DNA of 64,000 nucleotides from an uncultured Flavobacteriaceae bacterium (lineage in GTDB: Bacteria > Bacteroidota > Bacteroidia > Flavobacteriales > Flavobacteriaceae): assembly GCA_905182295.1 (NCBI GenBank), contig CAJJAZ010000004.1, positions 1 through 64,000 on the forward strand, in the 5' to 3' direction. The notes below the pieces were generated by a model that was not told where the DNA came from, did no database searches, and saw nothing but the letters and a program-made list of their open reading frames with translations. Position numbers and translations under genes: made by a program. Of this stretch, positions 18,570 through 47,854 are shown piece after piece; position 1 is the stretch's first letter, and each line of letters opens with the position of its first letter.

Positions 18570-19964
18570 TTATTTTCTTAGTTTCATATTTTTAGGATCC
18601 CACAAAATAGCTTTATTCTCATAATAACTATCATTACATGCCAAAGCTGGTGCGGCAGCCCTATAGCCAAAAATAGCGTCTTCCACTACAGAATCACCTC
18701 CTCTTATAGCAGTGAGCCAGTTGCCAAAATGATCGTGATGCGCCCCTAAGTATCCTTTTTCTGCGGCATATACGATCTCCTCTTGAGGCTTCATTTCTTT
18801 CCTAGCAACTGTGTTAGAAGACCCGCTGCCTTTTGCTTGAGCAGCCAAATAAGGGTCTGTCTCAAAACTTTCTGCATTTCTCCTCACAATTACCTTATCC
18901 CATTGCACATCCATAGCGCCTTCGCTACCCACAATACGCAAATAAGTGGTTCCAGAAGTGCCATCTACAAAATTACATCTTAACGAGAGGTTAAAAGCGG
19001 AGTGTTGTGGTGTTTTAGGATAGTCAAATACACCCAACATTACATCCGGTACCTCTCTGCCATCGTTCCAATATCGCAGCCCTCCAGAAGCGTAAATTTG
19101 ATCAGGTCCATAAGAATTGGTAATAAAATGTAAGCTAGAGAATAGGTGTACAAATAAATCTCCTGACATACCAGTTCCATAATCCCTGTAATTTCTCCAT
19201 CTAAAAAAACGCATTGGATCAAAATCTCTCTTGTGGGTATTACTCAAAAAAGTATCCCAATCTAAGGTCTCTGTAGAAGCGTCTTCTGGAATGTTGTATT
19301 GCCAAGCACCTGTGGGGCTTCTTCTGGCCCAAAACCCCTCTGCATAATTAATATCCCCTATAGCGCCTTGGGCCAAAAGTTCCCTTGCTTTTTCATTTCC
19401 TAAAGAGGAGAGTCCCTGACTGCCCACCATAAAGACTTTGCCTGTTTTTCTTTGCGCATCAATAACAGCATGTCCTTCATCCAAACTATGTACCATTGGT
19501 TTTTCGCAGTACACATGCTTTCCAGCATACATAGCATCTATAGATATTTGCTTGTGCCAGTGATCGGGAGTACCAATAATAACAGCGTCTACTTCTGGAC
19601 GGGCAAGTATGGCTTTATAATCTCTTGTGGTAAAAATGTCATTTCCCCATTGAGATTTGGCTTTGTCCAAGTGTCCTTGATACAGGTCACAAACAGCGAC
19701 TAACTTTACGCCTGCATGTGCTAAAACAGCATATGTATCCTGTGTACCCATTCCACCTGCACCAATGAGTGCAATTTGAATCTGAGCATTTTTGGAAAGA
19801 TCGATTCCTTTAAGATTTCTCTTTAAGGGTTGCACTTGGGACGCCGACAAGAGAGAAGGTGTTGCAGCTATGGCCATGCTTCCAATGGAAAATTTTTGAA
19901 CAAACTGCTTCCTACTCCATCCAAAACTTTGATTTGGGATTGAAGATTGATTTATTTTTTTCAT
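18570..19964 (-). CDS. Gfo/Idh/MocA-family oxidoreductase (exported type)
   Basis: 464 residues. The N-terminal NAD(P)-binding Rossmann motif is IALIGAGGMGTQDTYAVLAHAG, followed by IIGTPDHWHKQISIDAMYAGKHVYCEKP, the catalytic Lys-Pro motif of the family. The leader SRKQFVQKFSIGSMAIAATPSLLSA is shaped like a Tat signal but only one Arg is present where RR is expected. Likely oxidises a sugar or glycoside to a 3-keto form; the next gene is the DUF1080 hydrolase. It is divergent from the CarH-like regulator and shares its repeat-containing spacer. Confidence 0.85.
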   Translation of the reverse strand: MKKINQSSIPNQSFGWSRKQFVQKFSIGSMAIAATPSLLSASQVQPLKRNLKGIDLSKNAQIQIALIGAGGMGTQDTYAVLAHAGVKLVAVCDLYQGHLDKAKSQWGNDIFTTRDYKAILARPEVDAVIIGTPDHWHKQISIDAMYAGKHVYCEKPMVHSLDEGHAVIDAQRKTGKVFMVGSQGLSSLGNEKARELLAQGAIGDINYAEGFWARRSPTGAWQYNIPEDASTETLDWDTFLSNTHKRDFDPMRFFRWRNYRDYGTGMSGDLFVHLFSSLHFITNSYGPDQIYASGGLRYWNDGREVPDVMLGVFDYPKTPQHSAFNLSLRCNFVDGTSGTTYLRIVGSEGAMDVQWDKVIVRRNAESFETDPYLAAQAKGSGSSNTVARKEMKPQEEIVYAAEKGYLGAHHDHFGNWLTAIRGGDSVVEDAIFGYRAAAPALACNDSYYENKAILWDPKNMKLRK

Positions 19965-19988
19965 AAAAATAATAGGTTGGTTGGTATA

Positions 19989-20012
19989 TTGGTTAATTTA
20001 TTGGTTAATTAA
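19989..20012. repeat. Tandem 12-bp repeat in the regulator spacer, candidate operator
   Basis: TTGGTTAATTTA and TTGGTTAATTAA lie head to tail, followed by another TTTATTGG. The copies differ at one position. They lie between the divergent Gfo/Idh and MerR-type genes. Confidence 0.6.
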
Positions 20013-20075
20013 TTTATTGGTAGGTAAATCCAATGGTTTTGCTTTCAATGGCTTAAGGTATAAAATACTTAAAAG

Positions 20076-20096
20076 TTAATCAAATAATTAATCAAA
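20076..20096. repeat. Two TTAATCAAA copies, second candidate operator
   Basis: TTAATCAAA occurs at 20076-20084 and 20088-20096, again with a 12-base period. Its complement TTTGATTAA resembles TTGGTTAAT of the tandem repeat on the other side, so the spacer may hold two clusters in opposite orientation. The region is AT-rich, so chance is possible. Confidence 0.5.
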
Positions 20097-20152
20097 GAGA
20101 TTAAAATGTTTAATATTTTAAATAAAAAGATAAACAAATTGGATAAAAGGTG

Positions 20153-20160
20153 TAGCTTTG
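20153..20160 (+). promoter_or_regulatory. -7 element of the regulator/crt transcript
   Basis: TAGCTTTG, an exact TAnnTTTG match 21 bases before the ATG at 20182. No TTG stands at the usual -33 distance, which fits a regulated promoter. Confidence 0.5.
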
Positions 20161-20181
20161 TTTAAGTCTAAAAAACATCAA

Positions 20182-21084
20182 ATGAGTTTAGTGAAAAAGA
20201 CTTTTAGCATAAAAGATCTAGAAAACCTTTCTGGTATTAAAGCCCATACTATAAGGATTTGGGAGAAAAGATACAACCTCTTAAGTCCCGAGCGTACCCA
20301 GACAAATATCAGGTTATACAGCCTATTGAGTTTACAAAAACTCTTAAACATTTCGCTATTATATGAGAACGGACTGAAAATCTCTAAAATTGCCCAATTA
20401 AAAAATGAAGAAATCCCTCTGAAGGTTAGAGAAATTATAGACGAAAAGTCCATCAAGAACAATATGATGAATGCTTTTAAGCTATCTATGATTAATTTTG
20501 ACCAAAGCTTGTTTTACACTACTTACAACAAATTGGTTGTGGATTTAAGTTTTAGAGAAATTTTCAAAGAATATTTCATTCCATTACTTCAAGAATTGGG
20601 CTATTTATGGCAATCTAACACCATTAGTACTACCCATGAACATTTTATAACAAATCTAGTAAAACAAAAAGTATACACAAACACAGAAAAAGTGCACAGA
20701 TCTGAATATGTAGGCAACAAATCATTTGTCCTTTTTTTGCCTGAAAATGAGATTCACGAACTAGGTCTTTTATACCTCAATTATGAATTAAATCTCAGGG
20801 GGTATAAGAGTATATTCCTAGGACAAAGTGTTCCCATAGAAAACTTAGAGCCCTTAATTGCCAGTAATGAATTTGTTGAATTTATCGCTTATGTAACTGT
20901 AGAACCTTCAAAGGATAAAATCGATAAGTACCTGCGAAAATTCAAAAAGAAAATATTAGATAAAAAAAATTGTAGGCTCTCTCTTTTAGGTTTCCAAACA
21001 CAGTTTGTAGATCTAAATACAAAACCAGAAAACATAAGTATACACAGAGGTTTTGAAGAATTAATTGAAGCCTTAAATTTATAA
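20182..21084 (+). CDS. MerR-family regulator with B12-binding domain, CarH-like light sensor candidate
   Basis: 300 residues from the ATG at 20182; the track start (TTG 20158) overlaps the -7 element. Residues about 8-75 are a MerR winged HTH (FSIKDLENLSGIKAHTIRIWEKRYNLL). A helical B12-binding-2 domain then holds W143 and E153-H154, exactly the Wx9EH motif of adenosylcobalamin photoreceptors. The C-terminal Rossmann-like domain has E190-I-H192-E-L-G, the ExHxxG cobalamin motif with H192 the likely lower axial ligand. The base following the Trp is Gln, where Thermus CarH has a His. It sits just before crtI, three bases apart, so it probably represses the crt genes in the dark. Confidence 0.85.
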   Translation: MSLVKKTFSIKDLENLSGIKAHTIRIWEKRYNLLSPERTQTNIRLYSLLSLQKLLNISLLYENGLKISKIAQLKNEEIPLKVREIIDEKSIKNNMMNAFKLSMINFDQSLFYTTYNKLVVDLSFREIFKEYFIPLLQELGYLWQSNTISTTHEHFITNLVKQKVYTNTEKVHRSEYVGNKSFVLFLPENEIHELGLLYLNYELNLRGYKSIFLGQSVPIENLEPLIASNEFVEFIAYVTVEPSKDKIDKYLRKFKKKILDKKNCRLSLLGFQTQFVDLNTKPENISIHRGFEELIEALNL

Positions 21085-21087
21085 TAA

Positions 21088-22539
21088 ATGAAACAAATTA
21101 GTATTATAGGATCTGGCTTCTCTGCACTATCTGCCGCTTGCTATTTGGCAAAAGCGGGACACAATGTGGACTTATATGAAAAAAACAATACTATTGGCGG
21201 AAGGGCCAGGCAACTAAAGAGAGAAGGCTTTACTTTTGATATGGGACCAAGCTGGTACTGGATGCCTGATGTTTTTGACAAGTTTTTTGCGGATTTTGGC
21301 AAGAAAACATCAGATTACTACCAATTGGAAAAGCTTAGTCCAGCATATAAGGTGTGTTTTAACGAGGGTCATTTAACCATTGGAGACAGTTTAGAAAAAA
21401 TTATTCAAGCCTTTGAAGAAATAGAGGTGGGTAGCGGTGTTAAATTGGAGAAATTCATTGCAGAAGCCCAAGATCATTATAGAATTGCTATAGATAAAAT
21501 AGTATTGAGACCCGGTTTATCTCCTCTCGAATTGGTTACTCCTGAAACCATTACTAGGGTAGATCGCTTCTTTAGAACTATCAGCCAAAGGGTTAGAAAA
21601 GATTTTAAGAACCCTAAATTAATAGCAACACTGGAATTTCCTGTATTGTTTTTGGGTGCAAAACCAAACCAAACACCCTCTTTTTATAGCTTTATGAATT
21701 TTGCAGATTTTGGATTGGGTACTTGGCACCCTAAAGGTGGAATGTATAAAATTGTTTTGGCTATGGAAGAATTAGCCCATTCATTAGGGGTCAATATGTA
21801 CACCAATAGTCCAGTAGATAAAATAATTGTACAGGATAAAAAAGCAGTAGGGATTTCCGTAAAAGGAAAAGATATTAAGTCTGACGTTGTGCTGAGTGGT
21901 GCAGATTATCACCATTCAGAGACGCTATTAGACCCATCTTTTAGACAATACTCAGAAGCCTATTGGGAAAAGAAAATTTTTGCCCCTTCTTCTTTGCTAT
22001 TTTACGTAGGATTCAATGAGAGAATCCCAAATGTAGAGCACCACAACCTATTCTTTGATAGTGATTTTACAAAACATGCAGAAGAAATATACGACAATGC
22101 TGTTTGGCCATCTGATCCATTATTTTATGCTAATTTCCCCTCTATTTCTGACCCCTCTATGGCTCCAGAGAATTGTGAGACAGGTTTTTTCTTGATTCCA
22201 ATTGCTCCAGACTTGGAAGACAATGAATCTTTAAGAGAAAAATATTTTGAAAAAATCATGGACAGGTTTGAATTTAAAATAGGAAAAAGCGTTCGTGAAA
22301 ATATTATCTTTAAAGAATCTTTTTGCGTGAAAGACTTTAAAGAAACTTATAACTCTTACAAAGGAAATGCCTACGGAATGGCTAATACTTTAATGCAAAC
22401 TGCTTTTTTAAGGCCAAAATTAAAAAGTAGTAGGGTACGAAATTTATATTTCACAGGCCAACTTACAGTTCCAGGACCAGGTGTTCCTCCAGCGCTTATT
22501 TCCGGTAAAATTGTAGCAGACCTTATTTCAAAAAAATAA
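21088..22539 (+). CDS. crtI: Phytoene desaturase
   Basis: Converts phytoene to lycopene by successive desaturations, on the membrane, using FAD. The N-terminal dinucleotide motif ISIIGSGFSALSAACYLAKAG has a Ser-Ala where the third Gly often lies, followed by IGGRARQLKREGFTFDMGPSW; the C-terminal FAD motif is GQLTVPGPGVPPALISGK. 483 residues. It is the first structural gene of the cluster, three bases after the regulator and five bases before crtB. Confidence 0.93.
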   Translation: MKQISIIGSGFSALSAACYLAKAGHNVDLYEKNNTIGGRARQLKREGFTFDMGPSWYWMPDVFDKFFADFGKKTSDYYQLEKLSPAYKVCFNEGHLTIGDSLEKIIQAFEEIEVGSGVKLEKFIAEAQDHYRIAIDKIVLRPGLSPLELVTPETITRVDRFFRTISQRVRKDFKNPKLIATLEFPVLFLGAKPNQTPSFYSFMNFADFGLGTWHPKGGMYKIVLAMEELAHSLGVNMYTNSPVDKIIVQDKKAVGISVKGKDIKSDVVLSGADYHHSETLLDPSFRQYSEAYWEKKIFAPSSLLFYVGFNERIPNVEHHNLFFDSDFTKHAEEIYDNAVWPSDPLFYANFPSISDPSMAPENCETGFFLIPIAPDLEDNESLREKYFEKIMDRFEFKIGKSVRENIIFKESFCVKDFKETYNSYKGNAYGMANTLMQTAFLRPKLKSSRVRNLYFTGQLTVPGPGVPPALISGKIVADLISKK

Positions 22540-22544
22540 TACGG

Positions 22545-23396
22545 ATGAAAAGCCTATTTGATCAAGTTTCATATAGATGCAGTAAGCAAGTTACTGAATC
22601 ATACAGCACCTCATTTTCTCTGGCGACAAAAATGCTAGATATTAGCATAAGGCAAGACATATATAATATATATGGCTTTGTGCGGTTTGCAGACGAAATT
22701 GTAGATAGTTTTCATGATTATGACAAAGCTTTACTGTTTGAAAGGTTTGAAAATGATTTAGCGAATGCGCTCCGTGACAAGATTAGTCTAAACCCTATTT
22801 TAAATGCTTTCCAACATTCATTCCATAAATATGAAATTCCTATAGAACTGGTCACGGCCTTTATGAAAAGTATGAAAATGGATTTGACTAAAGAGGCTTA
22901 TATTACAGAAGAGGAATACAAAGAGTACATCTATGGATCTGCAGATGTTGTTGGACTCATGTGTCTAAAAGTTTTTGTCAAAGGCAACATTGTACAATAC
23001 AACGATTTAAAAGAGGCCGCCATGTCACTAGGATCTGCCTTTCAAAAGGTAAACTTTCTTAGAGATCTCAAAGCAGATTTTGAGGGACTCAATAGAACCT
23101 ACTTTCCAAACACAAACCTAAATGCCTTAGATGAAGAGGCCAAGGCAAGAATCATTGAAGAAATACAAGAAGACTTTTCAAATGGATTGGCGGGAATAGT
23201 TTTGCTTCCTAAAGAAGTTAAATTTGGGGTATATACCGCCTACATATATTATTATAAATTACTTAAGAAATTGAAGAAGACGCCGCCACTAGAAATTAAA
23301 AACAGTAGAATTAGGGTGACCAATCATCAAAAGATGGGTCTGTTGGTAAAGTCTTATTTGAGTTGTAAATTTAACTTAGTTATTAAACCTTCATAA
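22545..23396 (+). CDS. crtB: Phytoene synthase
   Basis: Head-to-head condensation of two GGPP to phytoene. The two aspartate-rich motifs are FADEIVDSFHD (first) and RDLKADFEG (second), with the FLRDLKAD and NRTYFP segments of the family. 283 residues. Follows crtI by five bases. The GGPP substrate must come from a synthase elsewhere in the genome. Confidence 0.94.
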   Translation: MKSLFDQVSYRCSKQVTESYSTSFSLATKMLDISIRQDIYNIYGFVRFADEIVDSFHDYDKALLFERFENDLANALRDKISLNPILNAFQHSFHKYEIPIELVTAFMKSMKMDLTKEAYITEEEYKEYIYGSADVVGLMCLKVFVKGNIVQYNDLKEAAMSLGSAFQKVNFLRDLKADFEGLNRTYFPNTNLNALDEEAKARIIEEIQEDFSNGLAGIVLLPKEVKFGVYTAYIYYYKLLKKLKKTPPLEIKNSRIRVTNHQKMGLLVKSYLSCKFNLVIKPS

Positions 23397-23405
23397 ATAA
23401 AAAAA

Positions 23406-23852
23406 ATGCATCTATTTTATTGGGCTTTATGCTTTGCTGCTACATTTTGTATCATGGAATTCATGGCTTGGTTCTCGCATAAATATATTATGCATGGATT
23501 TTTATGGCGCTTACATGAAGACCATCATAAAAAAGACCACGACAGTTGGTTCGAAAGAAATGACGCTTTCTTTATTTTCTATGCTGTCATTAGTATGGGT
23601 TTTATAATGACGGCAGAAAATACCTCTTTTTGGCAAGGATGGCCCATTGGATTGGGTATTATGGCTTATGGCTTTACTTATTTCATAGTTCATGACATCT
23701 TTATACACCAACGTTTTAAATGGTTTAGAAACGCCAATAACAAATACGCAAAAGGAATTAGAAGGGCTCATAAAATGCATCACAAACATTTAAGCAAAGA
23801 AGATGGAGAGTGCTTTGGAATGTTATTTATTCCCTTTAAATATTTCAAATAA
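23406..23852 (+). CDS. crtZ: Beta-carotene hydroxylase (CrtZ, fatty-acid hydroxylase type)
   Basis: Membrane di-iron hydroxylase adding 3-OH to beta-ionone rings. It has all the histidine boxes, HKYIMH, HEDHHK, HDIFIHQR and HKMHHKH, and four hydrophobic helices in 148 residues. Its stop codon TAA overlaps the next ATG as TAATG, a coupled junction. Confidence 0.93.
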   Translation: MHLFYWALCFAATFCIMEFMAWFSHKYIMHGFLWRLHEDHHKKDHDSWFERNDAFFIFYAVISMGFIMTAENTSFWQGWPIGLGIMAYGFTYFIVHDIFIHQRFKWFRNANNKYAKGIRRAHKMHHKHLSKEDGECFGMLFIPFKYFK

Positions 23853-25330
23853 TGCAAAAAAAAGCTATAGTTATTGGCGCAGGAATTGCTGGTTTAGCTT
23901 GTAGCTTAAGATTACAAAAAAAAGGCTATAAGGTCACTGTTGTTGAGAGAAACAGCTATACTGGAGGTAAAATGCATGTGCTGAAACAGCATGGGTACAG
24001 GTTTGATCTAGGCCCATCTTTATTTACCATGCCAGAGTTAGTAGCATCGCTCTTCAAACTTCATAATACTCCTTTAGAAAAATATTTCTCTTACAAAAAG
24101 AAAGACATTATATGTCACTATTTTTGGCCAGATGGCAGCTTTTTTAAGGCATCGGCGGAGCCAGAGGAATGGATAAAAGAAGCGGCTGATTTTTTTGGAG
24201 AATCCTCTGAAATTTTGAGAAGCTATTTAGATAATAGTGCTAGAAAATATGCGCTCACTGCCCCTATCTTTTTAGAGAAATCATTGGCTGATTGGAAAAC
24301 ATACTTAAGCACAAATACACTAAAAGCTATTTTTAATCTGGGTACTTTAAATATCTTTAATACCCTTGACAAACACCATAAAGATATATTTAAAAACAAA
24401 AAGCTCATTCAATACTTCAACAGGTTTGCCACCTACAACGGCTCCTCTCCTTACAAGACTTCTGCAATCATGAGTATGATTCCTCATTTAGAAATGCATA
24501 AGGGCACCTATTTTCCAACAGAAGGCATGCATTCGATAGGACAATCGCTTTATCAATTAGCCAAAGATAAAGGTGTTCATTTTTTACTTTCAACCCCAGT
24601 GCTTAAAATTAATGTAGAAAACAATAGTGCAAAAGGCATAGAAATAGTTGTAAATGGAGCAACCCAATACTTAGAAGCAGACATAGTAGTTTCAAATGCA
24701 GACGTATTTCACACCTATGAAAAACTGCTCCCAACCATTCAAACACCTAAGAGAATTGTTCAAGAGGAAAGATCGAGTTCTGGACTCATATTCTATTGGG
24801 GTATTTCTACCTCTTTTTCTTCATTAGACCTCCATAATATTTTTTTTAGTGAAGACTACCATACCGAATTCAAAGAAATTTTTGACAAACAGACCTTACC
24901 TACTGATCCAACCATATATATAAACATCAGCTCCAAAGAAAAACCATCAGATGCCCCTAAAGGTTGTGAAAATTGGTTTGTCATGGTTAACGCACCAGCC
25001 AATCAAGGCCAAGACTGGGAGGATTTAAAGCAAAAAATGAAACAAACAATTGTCAGAAAATTATCAGATCAACTGGGTGTTAATATAGCTGACTACATCG
25101 TATATGAAGAAATTTTAGACCCAATTGGTATAGAAAAAAATACCAGTGCATACCAAGGAGCCCTTTACGGCACTTCTAGTAATGACCCCAAAGCGGCATT
25201 TTTAAGACAATCAAATAAAAGTCATATTGAGAATTTATATTTTTGCGGTGGATCTGCACATCCTGGAGGTGGGATTCCGCTGTGTCTCCACAGTGCCAAA
25301 ATTACAGCAGATCTAATTCCGGCGCTTTAG
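23852..25330 (+). CDS. crtD: CrtI-family carotenoid desaturase, CrtD-like
   Basis: 492 residues, a second desaturase paralogous to crtI. The FAD motif is AIVIGAGIAGLACSLRLQKKG followed by TGGKMHVLKQHGYRFDLGPS; the C-terminal motif is GGSAHPGGGIPLCLHSAK. In saproxanthin/myxol-type flavobacterial clusters the second desaturase beside cruF is CrtD, which introduces the 3',4' double bond in the acyclic end group; that role fits the cruF neighbour. Sequence alone does not exclude other desaturase specificities. Confidence 0.75.
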   Translation: MQKKAIVIGAGIAGLACSLRLQKKGYKVTVVERNSYTGGKMHVLKQHGYRFDLGPSLFTMPELVASLFKLHNTPLEKYFSYKKKDIICHYFWPDGSFFKASAEPEEWIKEAADFFGESSEILRSYLDNSARKYALTAPIFLEKSLADWKTYLSTNTLKAIFNLGTLNIFNTLDKHHKDIFKNKKLIQYFNRFATYNGSSPYKTSAIMSMIPHLEMHKGTYFPTEGMHSIGQSLYQLAKDKGVHFLLSTPVLKINVENNSAKGIEIVVNGATQYLEADIVVSNADVFHTYEKLLPTIQTPKRIVQEERSSSGLIFYWGISTSFSSLDLHNIFFSEDYHTEFKEIFDKQTLPTDPTIYINISSKEKPSDAPKGCENWFVMVNAPANQGQDWEDLKQKMKQTIVRKLSDQLGVNIADYIVYEEILDPIGIEKNTSAYQGALYGTSSNDPKAAFLRQSNKSHIENLYFCGGSAHPGGGIPLCLHSAKITADLIPAL

Positions 25331-25449: not shown

Positions 25450-26100
25450 ATGAAAAAGACTACTGCCAGACAAATTGAACCGAAAACAAGTTTTGCTATT
25501 GGATTGATTTGGCTATTCAATATTACTGCAATCATAGGCATTGGTCTGGGATTTCAAGAGTGGTTTATTGAGAAAACATATGTAAATATGCTTCTTTACA
25601 CCGTTTTTTTAATCGCCTTATTTCCAGTAAATACATCTAGAAATATCTTTCTTTTCACCATAGCATGTCTAATCGGCATGTCTAGTGAATGGATAGGTGT
25701 GCATACCTCTTGGCTATTCGGCAGCTATTACTACGGAGAAAATTTAGGTATTAAATTAGGGGGAGTGCCGCTACTTATTGGTGTAAATTGGGCAGTACTT
25801 AGTCTAATCTCGGCAGATCTTGTAAAAAAATTAAACACCTCTAAATACTATAAAGCACTACTTGCTGCAAGTCTCATGGTGGGCTTAGACCTATTAATGG
25901 AATACGCAGCGCCTTCGCTAGACTTTTGGTACTTTGACGGAGAAATAGTTCCAATAAAAAACTACCTAAGCTGGTTTGCGGTGGCTTTTATAATTCAGCG
26001 CATCATAAACGACAGCTACACCGATGGAAATCGAAAGTATTCGTTGCACCTACTACTGAGCCAGTACGCTTTTTTTACCGCTTATTTATTGCTTCAATAA
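25450..26100 (+). CDS. cruF: CruF-like carotenoid 1',2'-hydratase (DUF422)
   Basis: 216 residues, a multi-pass membrane protein with at least six hydrophobic helices. The segment EWIGVHTSWLFGSYYYGENLGIKLGGVPLLIGVNWAVL is the hallmark of the CruF/DUF422 family, and the ASLMVGLDLLMEYAAPSLDFWYF segment holds its conserved acidic residues. CruF adds water across the 1',2' double bond of the acyclic psi-end of gamma-carotene. It sits 119 bases after crtD. Its last 15 bases overlap the convergent thioredoxin-fold gene. Confidence 0.88.
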   Translation: MKKTTARQIEPKTSFAIGLIWLFNITAIIGIGLGFQEWFIEKTYVNMLLYTVFLIALFPVNTSRNIFLFTIACLIGMSSEWIGVHTSWLFGSYYYGENLGIKLGGVPLLIGVNWAVLSLISADLVKKLNTSKYYKALLAASLMVGLDLLMEYAAPSLDFWYFDGEIVPIKNYLSWFAVAFIIQRIINDSYTDGNRKYSLHLLLSQYAFFTAYLLLQ

Positions 26101-44949: not shown

Positions 44950-45621
44950 CTAAGCCATGCGCTCTTTAAATAAAAATTTTCCTAGGTCAAATACCTGCTC
45001 GAGGGGCGTATTATTAAAAACTTCGAAAACAGTATTGATAGATTTTTCAATAAGAATATCTGTTTTCTCAAAACCTGGAGAACTGTCGTCCATCCAAAAT
45101 TTAATAGTAAAAATAAGTTGTACCCATGCAGCTTCAGAAAAAATGGCTGGTTGGAATTGTGTTAATTTTGATTGGGCGCTTGAATTATCAAGATCTATAA
45201 GGTCCTTTGTAAAAGATTTAAAATGATTTCGCAGGCCCTTTAAAGCTACTAAACTAGGTAACATATTTTTATCTGACTTAAGTGTAAATAACACATAAGA
45301 TCTATTTAACGTCAGCAGTTCAAAAAAGCTAAAAAAGAATCCTAGCATTTTCTCTCTGCTAGAAGAATTGGTAAAATCTTCGTTCTTTTGAAGTAGGCGC
45401 ATGGTTTGAGAGAAAAATGCTTCCCACACCCCTTTTTCTAGTGCTTCAATATTTCCAAAAAATTGGTAAAAAGAGACTTCTTCAAAACCGTGGACCTTAC
45501 AAAAACCGTATACAGTCACTGGCTTTTTTTCGTGATTTAACACATCTTCCATGTAGGCAGAAATAATCTGATCTGCATTTAAAACACTTGCTTTTTTAGG
45601 GGATACTTTTTTTGTGGCCAT
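44950..45621 (-). CDS. TetR-family transcriptional regulator
   Basis: 223 residues from the ATG at 45621 (MATKKVSPKKASVLN). N-terminal helix-turn-helix TVYGFCKVHGFEEVSFYQFFGNIEALEKG in the usual TetR position and a C-terminal all-helical ligand domain. In an operon with the UbiB-like kinase eight bases downstream, so the two probably serve the same response. A perfect inverted repeat in the leader is a candidate autoregulatory operator. Confidence 0.8.
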   Translation of the reverse strand: MATKKVSPKKASVLNADQIISAYMEDVLNHEKKPVTVYGFCKVHGFEEVSFYQFFGNIEALEKGVWEAFFSQTMRLLQKNEDFTNSSSREKMLGFFFSFFELLTLNRSYVLFTLKSDKNMLPSLVALKGLRNHFKSFTKDLIDLDNSSAQSKLTQFQPAIFSEAAWVQLIFTIKFWMDDSSPGFEKTDILIEKSINTVFEVFNNTPLEQVFDLGKFLFKERMA

Positions 45622-45687
45622 TAATGATTTTTTGTTTAGATAAAAATACAAAAAAATGAAACTAGATATTAAACGATTATAAATAAG

Positions 45688-45796: not shown

Positions 45797-45828
45797 CAAA
45801 TATAGTGAATGTTTAATCATTTATCCAA
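45797..45828 (-). promoter_or_regulatory. Promoter of the TetR-UbiB transcript
   Basis: Minus strand TTG, 21 bases, TATATTTG. It lies about 176 bases before the TetR ATG, so the leader contains the inverted repeat and the short ORF. Confidence 0.55.
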
Positions 45829-45964
45829 ATAGATAAACAAAATTAACATAGTCCTAACATATTACTGTATGTAATTCTGTCGGTAGCTGTGTCAGTTTGT
45901 CATATAACAAAGGCTTGGTATTTTAATTGCTTAGTTCTTTATATAATTTTAAAAGATATAAGTT

Positions 45965-47854
45965 ATGGCCCAAGGCAAGATTAATGTATCAGTGGAAAAT
46001 ATTTTCCCCCTGATTAAAAAGTTTTTATACAGTGATCACGAAATCTTTCTAAGAGAATTAATTTCTAATGCTACAGATGCTACACTTAAATTAAAACACC
46101 TTACCGCTATAGGTGAAGCTAAAGTAGACTATGGCAATCCTCAGATTGAAATTAAAATTGATAAAGAAGGAAAAAAAATTCACATTGCGGACCAAGGTCT
46201 TGGAATGACTTCTGAAGAGGTAGAAAAATACATAAATCAAGTCGCATTTTCGGGAGCAGAAGAATTTCTGGACAAATACAAAGAGGCTGGAAAAGACACT
46301 GGAATTATAGGCCATTTTGGTTTAGGTTTCTACTCTGCTTTTATGGTCGCCCATACAGTAGAAATAATTACCAAAAGTTTTAAAGATGAACCTGCAGCAC
46401 ATTGGACCTGTGATGGATCTCCAAATTTTACATTGGAAGCAGCGGACAAAAAGGACAGAGGTACAGAAATCATTCTTCATGTAGCAGAAGATTCATTGGA
46501 GTTCTTAGAAGAAAGTAAAATCAGTGGATTATTAAACAAGTACAATAAATTCATGCCTGTTCCTATTGTGTTTGGAACTAAAACAGAAACCCTTCCCAAA
46601 CCAGAAGGCGCTAAGGAAGAAGATTCAGCACCTACTCATGAAGTACCAAACATTATTAATAATCCAAATCCAGCATGGACCAAGGCGCCTGCAGATTTAA
46701 ATGAAGAAGAATACAAAGGATTCTACAGAGAATTGTACCCCATGCAGTTCGAAGAGCCCCTGTTTCACATTCACTTAAATGTAGACTATCCTTTTAACCT
46801 CACAGGAATTTTATATTTCCCAAAACTAACCAACGATTTGAATGTCCAAAAGGACAAAATTCAATTGTATCAAAACCAAGTATTTGTTACAGATAATGTA
46901 GAGGGGATTGTACCTGAATTCTTAACCATGCTCAGAGGGGTAATTGACTCTCCAGATATTCCATTAAACGTGTCTAGGTCTTACCTTCAAGCAGACGGAG
47001 CAGTTAAAAAAATCGCTACCTATATCACAAAGAAAGTAGGAGACAAACTGAGTAGTTTATTTAAAAACGACCGGGCAGCTTTTGAAGAAAAGTGGAATGA
47101 TATTAAAATTGTCATTGAATACGGAATGCTTTCTGAAGATAAGTTCTTTGACAAAGCAGACAAGTTCGCACTTTATCCAACAGTAGACGGCTCGTATTTC
47201 ACCTTTGAAGAATTACAAGAAAAATTAAAAGACAACCAAACAGATAAAGATGGTAAATTAATTCTTTTGTACGCTTCAGACAAAGAGTCACAACATGCAT
47301 ATATATTGGCTGCAAAAGCAAAAGGATATGAGGTACTCCTCTTAGATTCTCCTATTGTATCTCATCTGATGCAAAAGCTTGAAACATCTAAAGAGAATAT
47401 TTCCTTTGCCAGAGTAGACGCAGATCCTATGGATAAGCTTATTCAAAAAGAAGAAACCACCATTTCTAAACTTTCGGATGAAGAAAAGGAAACTTTGAAA
47501 TTAAAAATTGAAGGAGTCACTGGAGAATCCGGATTAACCGTTCAATTAGAAGCAATGGATAGTGATAGCGCTCCTTTCGTAATAACAGAACCAGAGTTTA
47601 TGAGAAGGATGAAAGAAATGCAGCAAACCGGAGGTGGCGGCGGAATGTTTGGGATGGGAAACATGCCTGACATGCACAACTTAATTGTCAATATTAACCA
47701 CCCATTGGTCAGTGAAATTCTTCAGACCAAAACACAAAAAAAACAAGAGCGCCTTATCAGCCAATCTATAGATCTAGCAAAACTTTCAAAAGGCCTTTTA
47801 AAAGGAGCTGCCCTAAGTGATTTTATCTCTAGAAGCTATGAGATGATCAAATAA
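45965..47854 (+). CDS. htpG: Molecular chaperone HtpG (Hsp90)
   Basis: Cytoplasmic ATP-dependent chaperone. The GHKL ATPase domain has ELISNATDAT, ADQGLGMTSEEV and GHFGLGFYSAFMVA; the middle domain contains LYFPKLTNDLNVQKDKIQLY and NVSRSYLQAD; the C-terminal dimerisation domain is present (LIVNINHPLVSEIL). 629 residues, with a glycine-rich insertion GGGGGMFGMGNMPDMHN before the C-domain. Single gene with its own terminator. Confidence 0.97.
   Translation: MAQGKINVSVENIFPLIKKFLYSDHEIFLRELISNATDATLKLKHLTAIGEAKVDYGNPQIEIKIDKEGKKIHIADQGLGMTSEEVEKYINQVAFSGAEEFLDKYKEAGKDTGIIGHFGLGFYSAFMVAHTVEIITKSFKDEPAAHWTCDGSPNFTLEAADKKDRGTEIILHVAEDSLEFLEESKISGLLNKYNKFMPVPIVFGTKTETLPKPEGAKEEDSAPTHEVPNIINNPNPAWTKAPADLNEEEYKGFYRELYPMQFEEPLFHIHLNVDYPFNLTGILYFPKLTNDLNVQKDKIQLYQNQVFVTDNVEGIVPEFLTMLRGVIDSPDIPLNVSRSYLQADGAVKKIATYITKKVGDKLSSLFKNDRAAFEEKWNDIKIVIEYGMLSEDKFFDKADKFALYPTVDGSYFTFEELQEKLKDNQTDKDGKLILLYASDKESQHAYILAAKAKGYEVLLLDSPIVSHLMQKLETSKENISFARVDADPMDKLIQKEETTISKLSDEEKETLKLKIEGVTGESGLTVQLEAMDSDSAPFVITEPEFMRRMKEMQQTGGGGGMFGMGNMPDMHNLIVNINHPLVSEILQTKTQKKQERLISQSIDLAKLSKGLLKGAALSDFISRSYEMIK

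Follow-up and report, generated by a model that had tools for sequence, protein, structure and literature searches.

The carH locus and its product

The window (the whole stretch of 64,000 nucleotides of flavobacterial DNA that was analyzed) carries a run of carotenoid genes that begins with a regulatory gene, carH, and is separated by an intergenic spacer from a divergent oxidoreductase gene:

18570-19964, minus strand: divergent Gfo/Idh oxidoreductase gene
20182-21084, plus strand: carH, MerR helix-turn-helix and B12-binding photoreceptor-repressor homologue, ATG at 20182
21088-22539, plus strand: crtI, phytoene desaturase (NF058655)
22545-23396, plus strand: crtB, phytoene synthase family
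23406-23852, plus strand: crtZ-like hydroxylase gene, no family match, assigned by context and histidine motifs
23852-25330, plus strand: crtD (NF042421)
25450-26100, plus strand: cruF-like carotenoid hydratase gene (PF04240)

The carH product has a MerR-type helix-turn-helix followed by a cobalamin-binding domain (PF13411 and PF02607, both above cut-off) and aligns over its full length with CarH structures from Thermus thermophilus (E about 3e-13). This alignment covers the tryptophan, Glu-His and cobalt-ligating histidine positions, the AdoCbl-contact residues in T. thermophilus CarH being W131, E141, H142 and the cobalt-ligating H177 (PMC11796333). The motif Wx9EH is found in 110 of 110 relatives and [ED]xHxxG in 109 of 110, and the window protein has both. 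Its score against the NCBIfam CarH equivalog NF052513 is 69.5 bits for a cut-off of 400, and by that model it is therefore a distant CarH homologue rather than an equivalog. Judged by its sequence, the carH product is a homologue of the CarH-family photoreceptor-repressors, with predicted AdoCbl binding and light response.

Many Flavobacteriaceae have carH just 3′ of a tRNA-Leu gene (L033-L035, L037, L041, L043, L044, L049), and the Gfo/Idh neighbor is peculiar to the window's genus. Second CarH paralogues also occur in this genus (L328, L329; G003, G004), with a flavin-reductase-like gene directly downstream.

Tandem 12-bp repeats in the spacer

The preliminary description of this DNA proposed that 12-bp tandem repeats in the Gfo/Idh–carH spacer, together with an inverted pair ~75 bp away, form a direct-repeat CarH operator. 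The features concerned are:

19989-20012: first 12-bp tandem pair, TTGGTTAATTTA (19989-20000) and TTGGTTAATTAA (20001-20012), head to tail, 11/12 identity
20076-20099: second pair, TTAATCAAATAA (20076-20087) and TTAATCAAAGAG (20088-20099), unconserved
19977-20028: degenerate tract in a 4-bp register, made of TTGG, TTAA and TTTA units, which contains the first 12-bp repeat and lies on the Gfo/Idh 5′ leader side

The repeats themselves are real. The members of the second pair have TTAATCAAA in common at a 12-base period, and the two pairs match each other in inverted orientation over 20 nt at 80%, both as had been described. Against 2000 dinucleotide-shuffled versions of the spacer, P was 0.0005 for an equally good match at period 12, 0.004 for one at any period from 9 to 13, and 0.001 for two separate exact 8-mer repeats sharing one period; the period-12 match is therefore more than composition. 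The repeat sequence is single-copy in the portion of the genome searched.

Besides this above-chance periodicity, the proposal has in its favor that the adjacent regulator is a CarH homologue, and that known CarH sites are direct repeats, arranged in tandem as 11-bp units nnnnTnnACAn (T. thermophilus, Bacillus megaterium and myxobacteria; PMC9304148). However, the spacer repeats step by 12 bp rather than 11, the TnnACA core is missing from both of their strands, and their distance upstream from the conserved carH promoter element is 50-150 bp. Both pairs are moreover absent from four congeners that share the divergent Gfo/Idh–carH pair (G001, G009, G010 and G011; CarH 75-94% identical), in which the spacer measures 156-190 bp vs. 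221 bp in the window, i.e., 30-65 bp less. The preliminary description had itself called for an alignment of this spacer among relatives and named absence of a conserved 12-base period as an outcome that would refute its proposal, and absence is what the congeners display.

A clean 4-bp register runs from 19977 to 20028, with periods 4, 8, 12 and 16 all elevated and TTGG recurring at 19977, 19981, 19989, 20001 and 20017, in steps of 4, 8, 12 and 16 bp. At the same place three congeners have two or three TTGG units, and the fourth has a degenerate stretch. The simplest account would be that the first 12-bp pair arose specifically in this lineage, when a short run of (TTGG)n in the Gfo/Idh leader expanded by slippage. 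It resembles slippage-derived tetranucleotide tracts in its 4-bp register, in the length difference among close relatives and in the short (TTGG)n of the congeners, but its units are degenerate and the slippage is deduced rather than observed. On conservation, core and step, the 12-bp repeats were ruled out as the operator, a reading to which we attach only a very small probability; the comparison of these spacers indicates that they are a peculiarity of the window's genome. What stands of the original proposal is the identification of the regulator as a CarH homologue and the assignment of its operator to this spacer, where it very probably lies, though neither at the repeats nor in a direct-repeat architecture.

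A conserved inverted repeat at carH promoters

Three short elements between the repeats and carH form the candidate operator and promoter:

20107-20136: predicted CarH operator, a dyad (inverted repeat) TGTTTAA-N16-ATAAACA with arms 23 bp start to start
20153-20160, plus strand: -7 promoter element of carH, TAGCTTTG (TAnnTTTG), from 110 carH promoters
20159-20165, plus strand: half-site TGTTTAA fused to the -7 element, giving the TAnnTTTGTTTAA box (20153-20165)

Five congeners keep TGTTTAA (20107), ATAAACA (20130) and TAnnTTTGTTTAA (20153), and the rest of the spacer drifts; the G011 dyad has N17, with arms 24 bp start to start. A dyad as good as 20107-20136 was reached in 11 of 20,000 shuffles of the spacer, and its half-site, TAAACA, agrees with the TnnACA core of CarH sites (PMC9304148). 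The window arm ATAAACA deviates from the consensus, so that the dyad scores 13/14, which weighs against its being the operator. No dyad lies nearer the Gfo/Idh gene and no clear -7 element was seen on that side of the spacer; the suggestion that the Gfo/Idh gene is co-regulated through the spacer thus found no support.

Among the 110 flavobacterial carH promoters the TAnnTTTGTTTAA box is near-universal, and in 95 of them its distance from the start codon is identical. The second arm at these promoters is ATGAACA, placed over the start codon, and it forces AAC at codon 2: where this codon is Asn, it is AAC in 91 of 93 carH genes vs. 887 of 2348 (38%) for Asn codons at other positions of the same genes (p = 9e-35). 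The window's genus no longer has the start-codon arm (ATGAGTT), and the upstream dyad 20107/20130 has the same 23-bp step.

Two other arrangements were considered. The carH box alone proved incomplete as a whole operator, the second arm 23 bp away having emerged at photolyase promoters (below). A third half-site within the dyad at an 11-bp step, prompted by one crtI promoter (G045), is not general: TGTnnA stands at +11 in the same orientation in 3 of 180 oriented sites.

Photolyase promoters and co-occurrence with CarH

When 15 CarH-bearing genomes were scanned for the TAnnTTTGTTTAA box near their photolyase genes, the box turned up ahead of photolyase operons, where it forms one half of the inverted repeat TTTTGTTTAAC-N14-GTTAAACA, with arms 23 bp start to start. 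These photolyase dyads keep their arms even where TAnn is degenerate, which bears on whether the conserved box might be a flavobacterial promoter element only, that is, TAnnTTTG with a favored downstream sequence. Consistent with such an element, the flavobacterial primary-sigma promoter is TTG-N-TAnnTTTG (PMC3587595), the carH box shares positions with a TAnnTTTG -7 element, and elements of this type often adjoin dyads. However, the box is too rare genome-wide for a generic promoter (6 matches vs. 3 for the reversed control), and a promoter element would predict neither the spacing specificity nor the absence from CarH-lacking genomes reported next. The tests of spacing and of CarH co-occurrence thus strongly disfavor the promoter-only reading, which we hold to be highly improbable.

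Exact copies of TGTTTAA-N16-TTAAACA number 106 in 30 CarH-bearing flavobacterial genomes, and 29 of the 30 genomes contribute to this count. The ten spacings from N17 to N26 add up to 55 sites in the same genomes; several of these are probably genuine N17 sites, among them one in the photolyase cluster of the window's genome (G000:C5:15926). The 20 genomes in which CarH was not detected have 1 exact N16 dyad, and 17 sites over the ten other spacings. For these counts, Fisher p = 6e-7 and Poisson p = 2e-13, values that serve as guides only, since the genomes counted are related and not independent, a point against the CarH interpretation. Photolyase regions of genomes lacking CarH hold no dyad, and target-gene presence therefore does not explain the dyad distribution. 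Also against a link with CarH, one genome without detected CarH (G008, 64% complete) does carry the dyad.

In other families of the order, and with divergent CarHs, the same or variant dyads are found either where carH begins or between carH and crtI. Genomes with divergent CarHs (L321-L324) have the variant arms TGTCTAA/TTAGACA, and in other families TGTATAA/TTATACA is found before proteorhodopsin (L340, L341, L348, L349). From these variant arms, a co-evolution of CarH and its operator appears possible.

Genes next to the dyads

Pfam assignment of the gene context in 40 regions placed dyads at crtI starts, at photolyase-cluster genes, at genes for fasciclin-domain proteins and in a divergent rhodopsin/blh pair, as well as next to a TetR-like gene beside photolyases or htpG, a desaturase-family gene and a GHMP-kinase-family gene. 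In the window's own genome, a perfect TGTTTAA-N16-TTAAACA (G000:C3:101698-101727, L288) lies between divergent proteorhodopsin (PF01036, 3e-40) and blh (PF15461, 2e-30) genes, another dyad precedes a fasciclin gene (G000:C4:155408), and a flavin-reductase/photolyase operon (G000:C4:117835) has the box and, over its GTG start, a TGAAACA arm. Fasciclin-domain proteins recur 3′ of the dyad in several genera (L270, L273, L276, L279, L285, L289, L292, L294, L299, L306).

At a threshold of at least 12/14, with spacings from 6 to 29 compared, 28 of 50 proteorhodopsin upstream regions have a dyad at N16 and 5 at N17, the other spacings giving 0-5 each. Against control by CarH, two CarH-bearing genomes (G031, G054) have no dyad before proteorhodopsin.

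Within the window, a single other site reaches at least 13/14:

45810-45839: second dyad, TGTTTAATCATTTATCCAAATAGATAAACA, between a TetR-like gene (44950-45651, minus strand) and htpG (45965-47854, plus strand)

A site between these two genes was found in 8 of 8 relatives checked, which points to possible light control of htpG, the TetR-like gene or both. An alternative is that the dyad is bound by another regulator, such as the TetR-like protein (PF17931), whose gene is often found beside dyads, and that CarH merely co-occurs with it: inverted repeats are common targets of TetR proteins, and a TetR-like gene with an upstream dyad is present in several genera, including in this window. However, five CarH-bearing genomes have dyads and no TetR gene (G032, G029, G062, G022, G030), two CarH-lacking genomes have the TetR gene and no dyads (G071, G076), the carH and crtI promoters themselves carry dyads, and the half-site matches the CarH core. 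Genomes with one but not the other speak against the TetR-like neighbor as the binder, and we consider this alternative unlikely.

A predicted CarH light regulon

Across the flavobacterial genomes, the dyads keep their arms and spacing, lie at or beside -7 boxes, share a recurrent gene context and co-occur with CarH. They have the properties of a CarH operator in the wide sense, namely TnnACA half-sites at carH and crt promoters together with CarH itself. We therefore regard it as highly probable that the neighboring CarH has its operator in the dyad 20107-20136 of this spacer and in the half-site fused to the -7 box (20153-20165), rather than in the 12-bp repeats, and that this operator belongs to a light regulon.

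By analogy with characterized CarH proteins, we infer CarH binding, dark repression and light release at the dyad. In the dark, AdoCbl-CarH would occupy the two inverted half-sites, which lie about two turns apart and would be bridged by a putative CarH oligomer, and RNA polymerase would be kept off the promoter of carH-crtI-crtB-(crtZ-like)-crtD-cruF; in the light, the Co-C bond would be broken, CarH released and the operon induced. The same dyad would mark the other members of the regulon, i.e., carH and crtI elsewhere, photolyase clusters, fasciclin proteins, htpG/TetR and proteorhodopsin/blh. The dyad thus probably lets CarH switch on pigments, photolyases and proteorhodopsin across flavobacteria. 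More generally, it seems likely that CarH acts throughout Flavobacteriales as a global B12-dependent light repressor, governing carotenogenesis, photolyases, fasciclins and proteorhodopsin/Blh through an inverted operator with a 23-bp spacing.

Proteorhodopsin regulation in marine flavobacteria was called unresolved in 2013 (PMC3587595), and the dyad now supplies a specific candidate regulator, a delimited site and a set of genes for its control. If this reading is true, a light-driven proton pump of marine bacteria stands under a cobalamin photoreceptor, and the use of proteorhodopsin is tied to cobalamin supply; CarH would likewise be capable of acting through an inverted operator, on a regulon that reaches far past carotenoid genes. 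A literature search, with subscription journals outside its scope, found neither a description of an inverted CarH operator with a wide regulon including proteorhodopsin nor a paper linking CarH to proteorhodopsin.

Comparison with known systems

The window's promoter resembles the flavobacterial primary-sigma promoter in the TAnnTTTG of carH, but its GTTTAA extension and the dyad lie outside the promoter consensus. CarA of Myxococcus xanthus, a B12-independent paralogue, has an operator described with inverted repeats (PMC9304148), placed upstream of and overlapping the promoter, which makes it similar to the arrangement seen here; unlike here, its ~55-bp segment can also be read as 11-bp repeats.

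There is also a close likeness to CarH of T. thermophilus, B. megaterium and myxobacteria. The regulator is a homologue with MerR and B12-binding domains and the cofactor residues, TAAACA fits TnnACA, the operator overlaps or adjoins the carH/crt promoter, and dark repression with light release is presumed here as it is known there. A point against our interpretation is that known CarH operators are tandem at 11 bp, a direct step not seen at the dyads: flavobacterial half-sites stand in inverted orientation with a 23-bp start-to-start step, and have no third half-site at 11 bp. The flavobacterial regulon would also be wider than that of known CarH, adding photolyases, fasciclins and proteorhodopsin/blh. 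The half-site core and the regulator are thus of a known kind, and the inverted architecture and a regulon that includes proteorhodopsin are apparently new.
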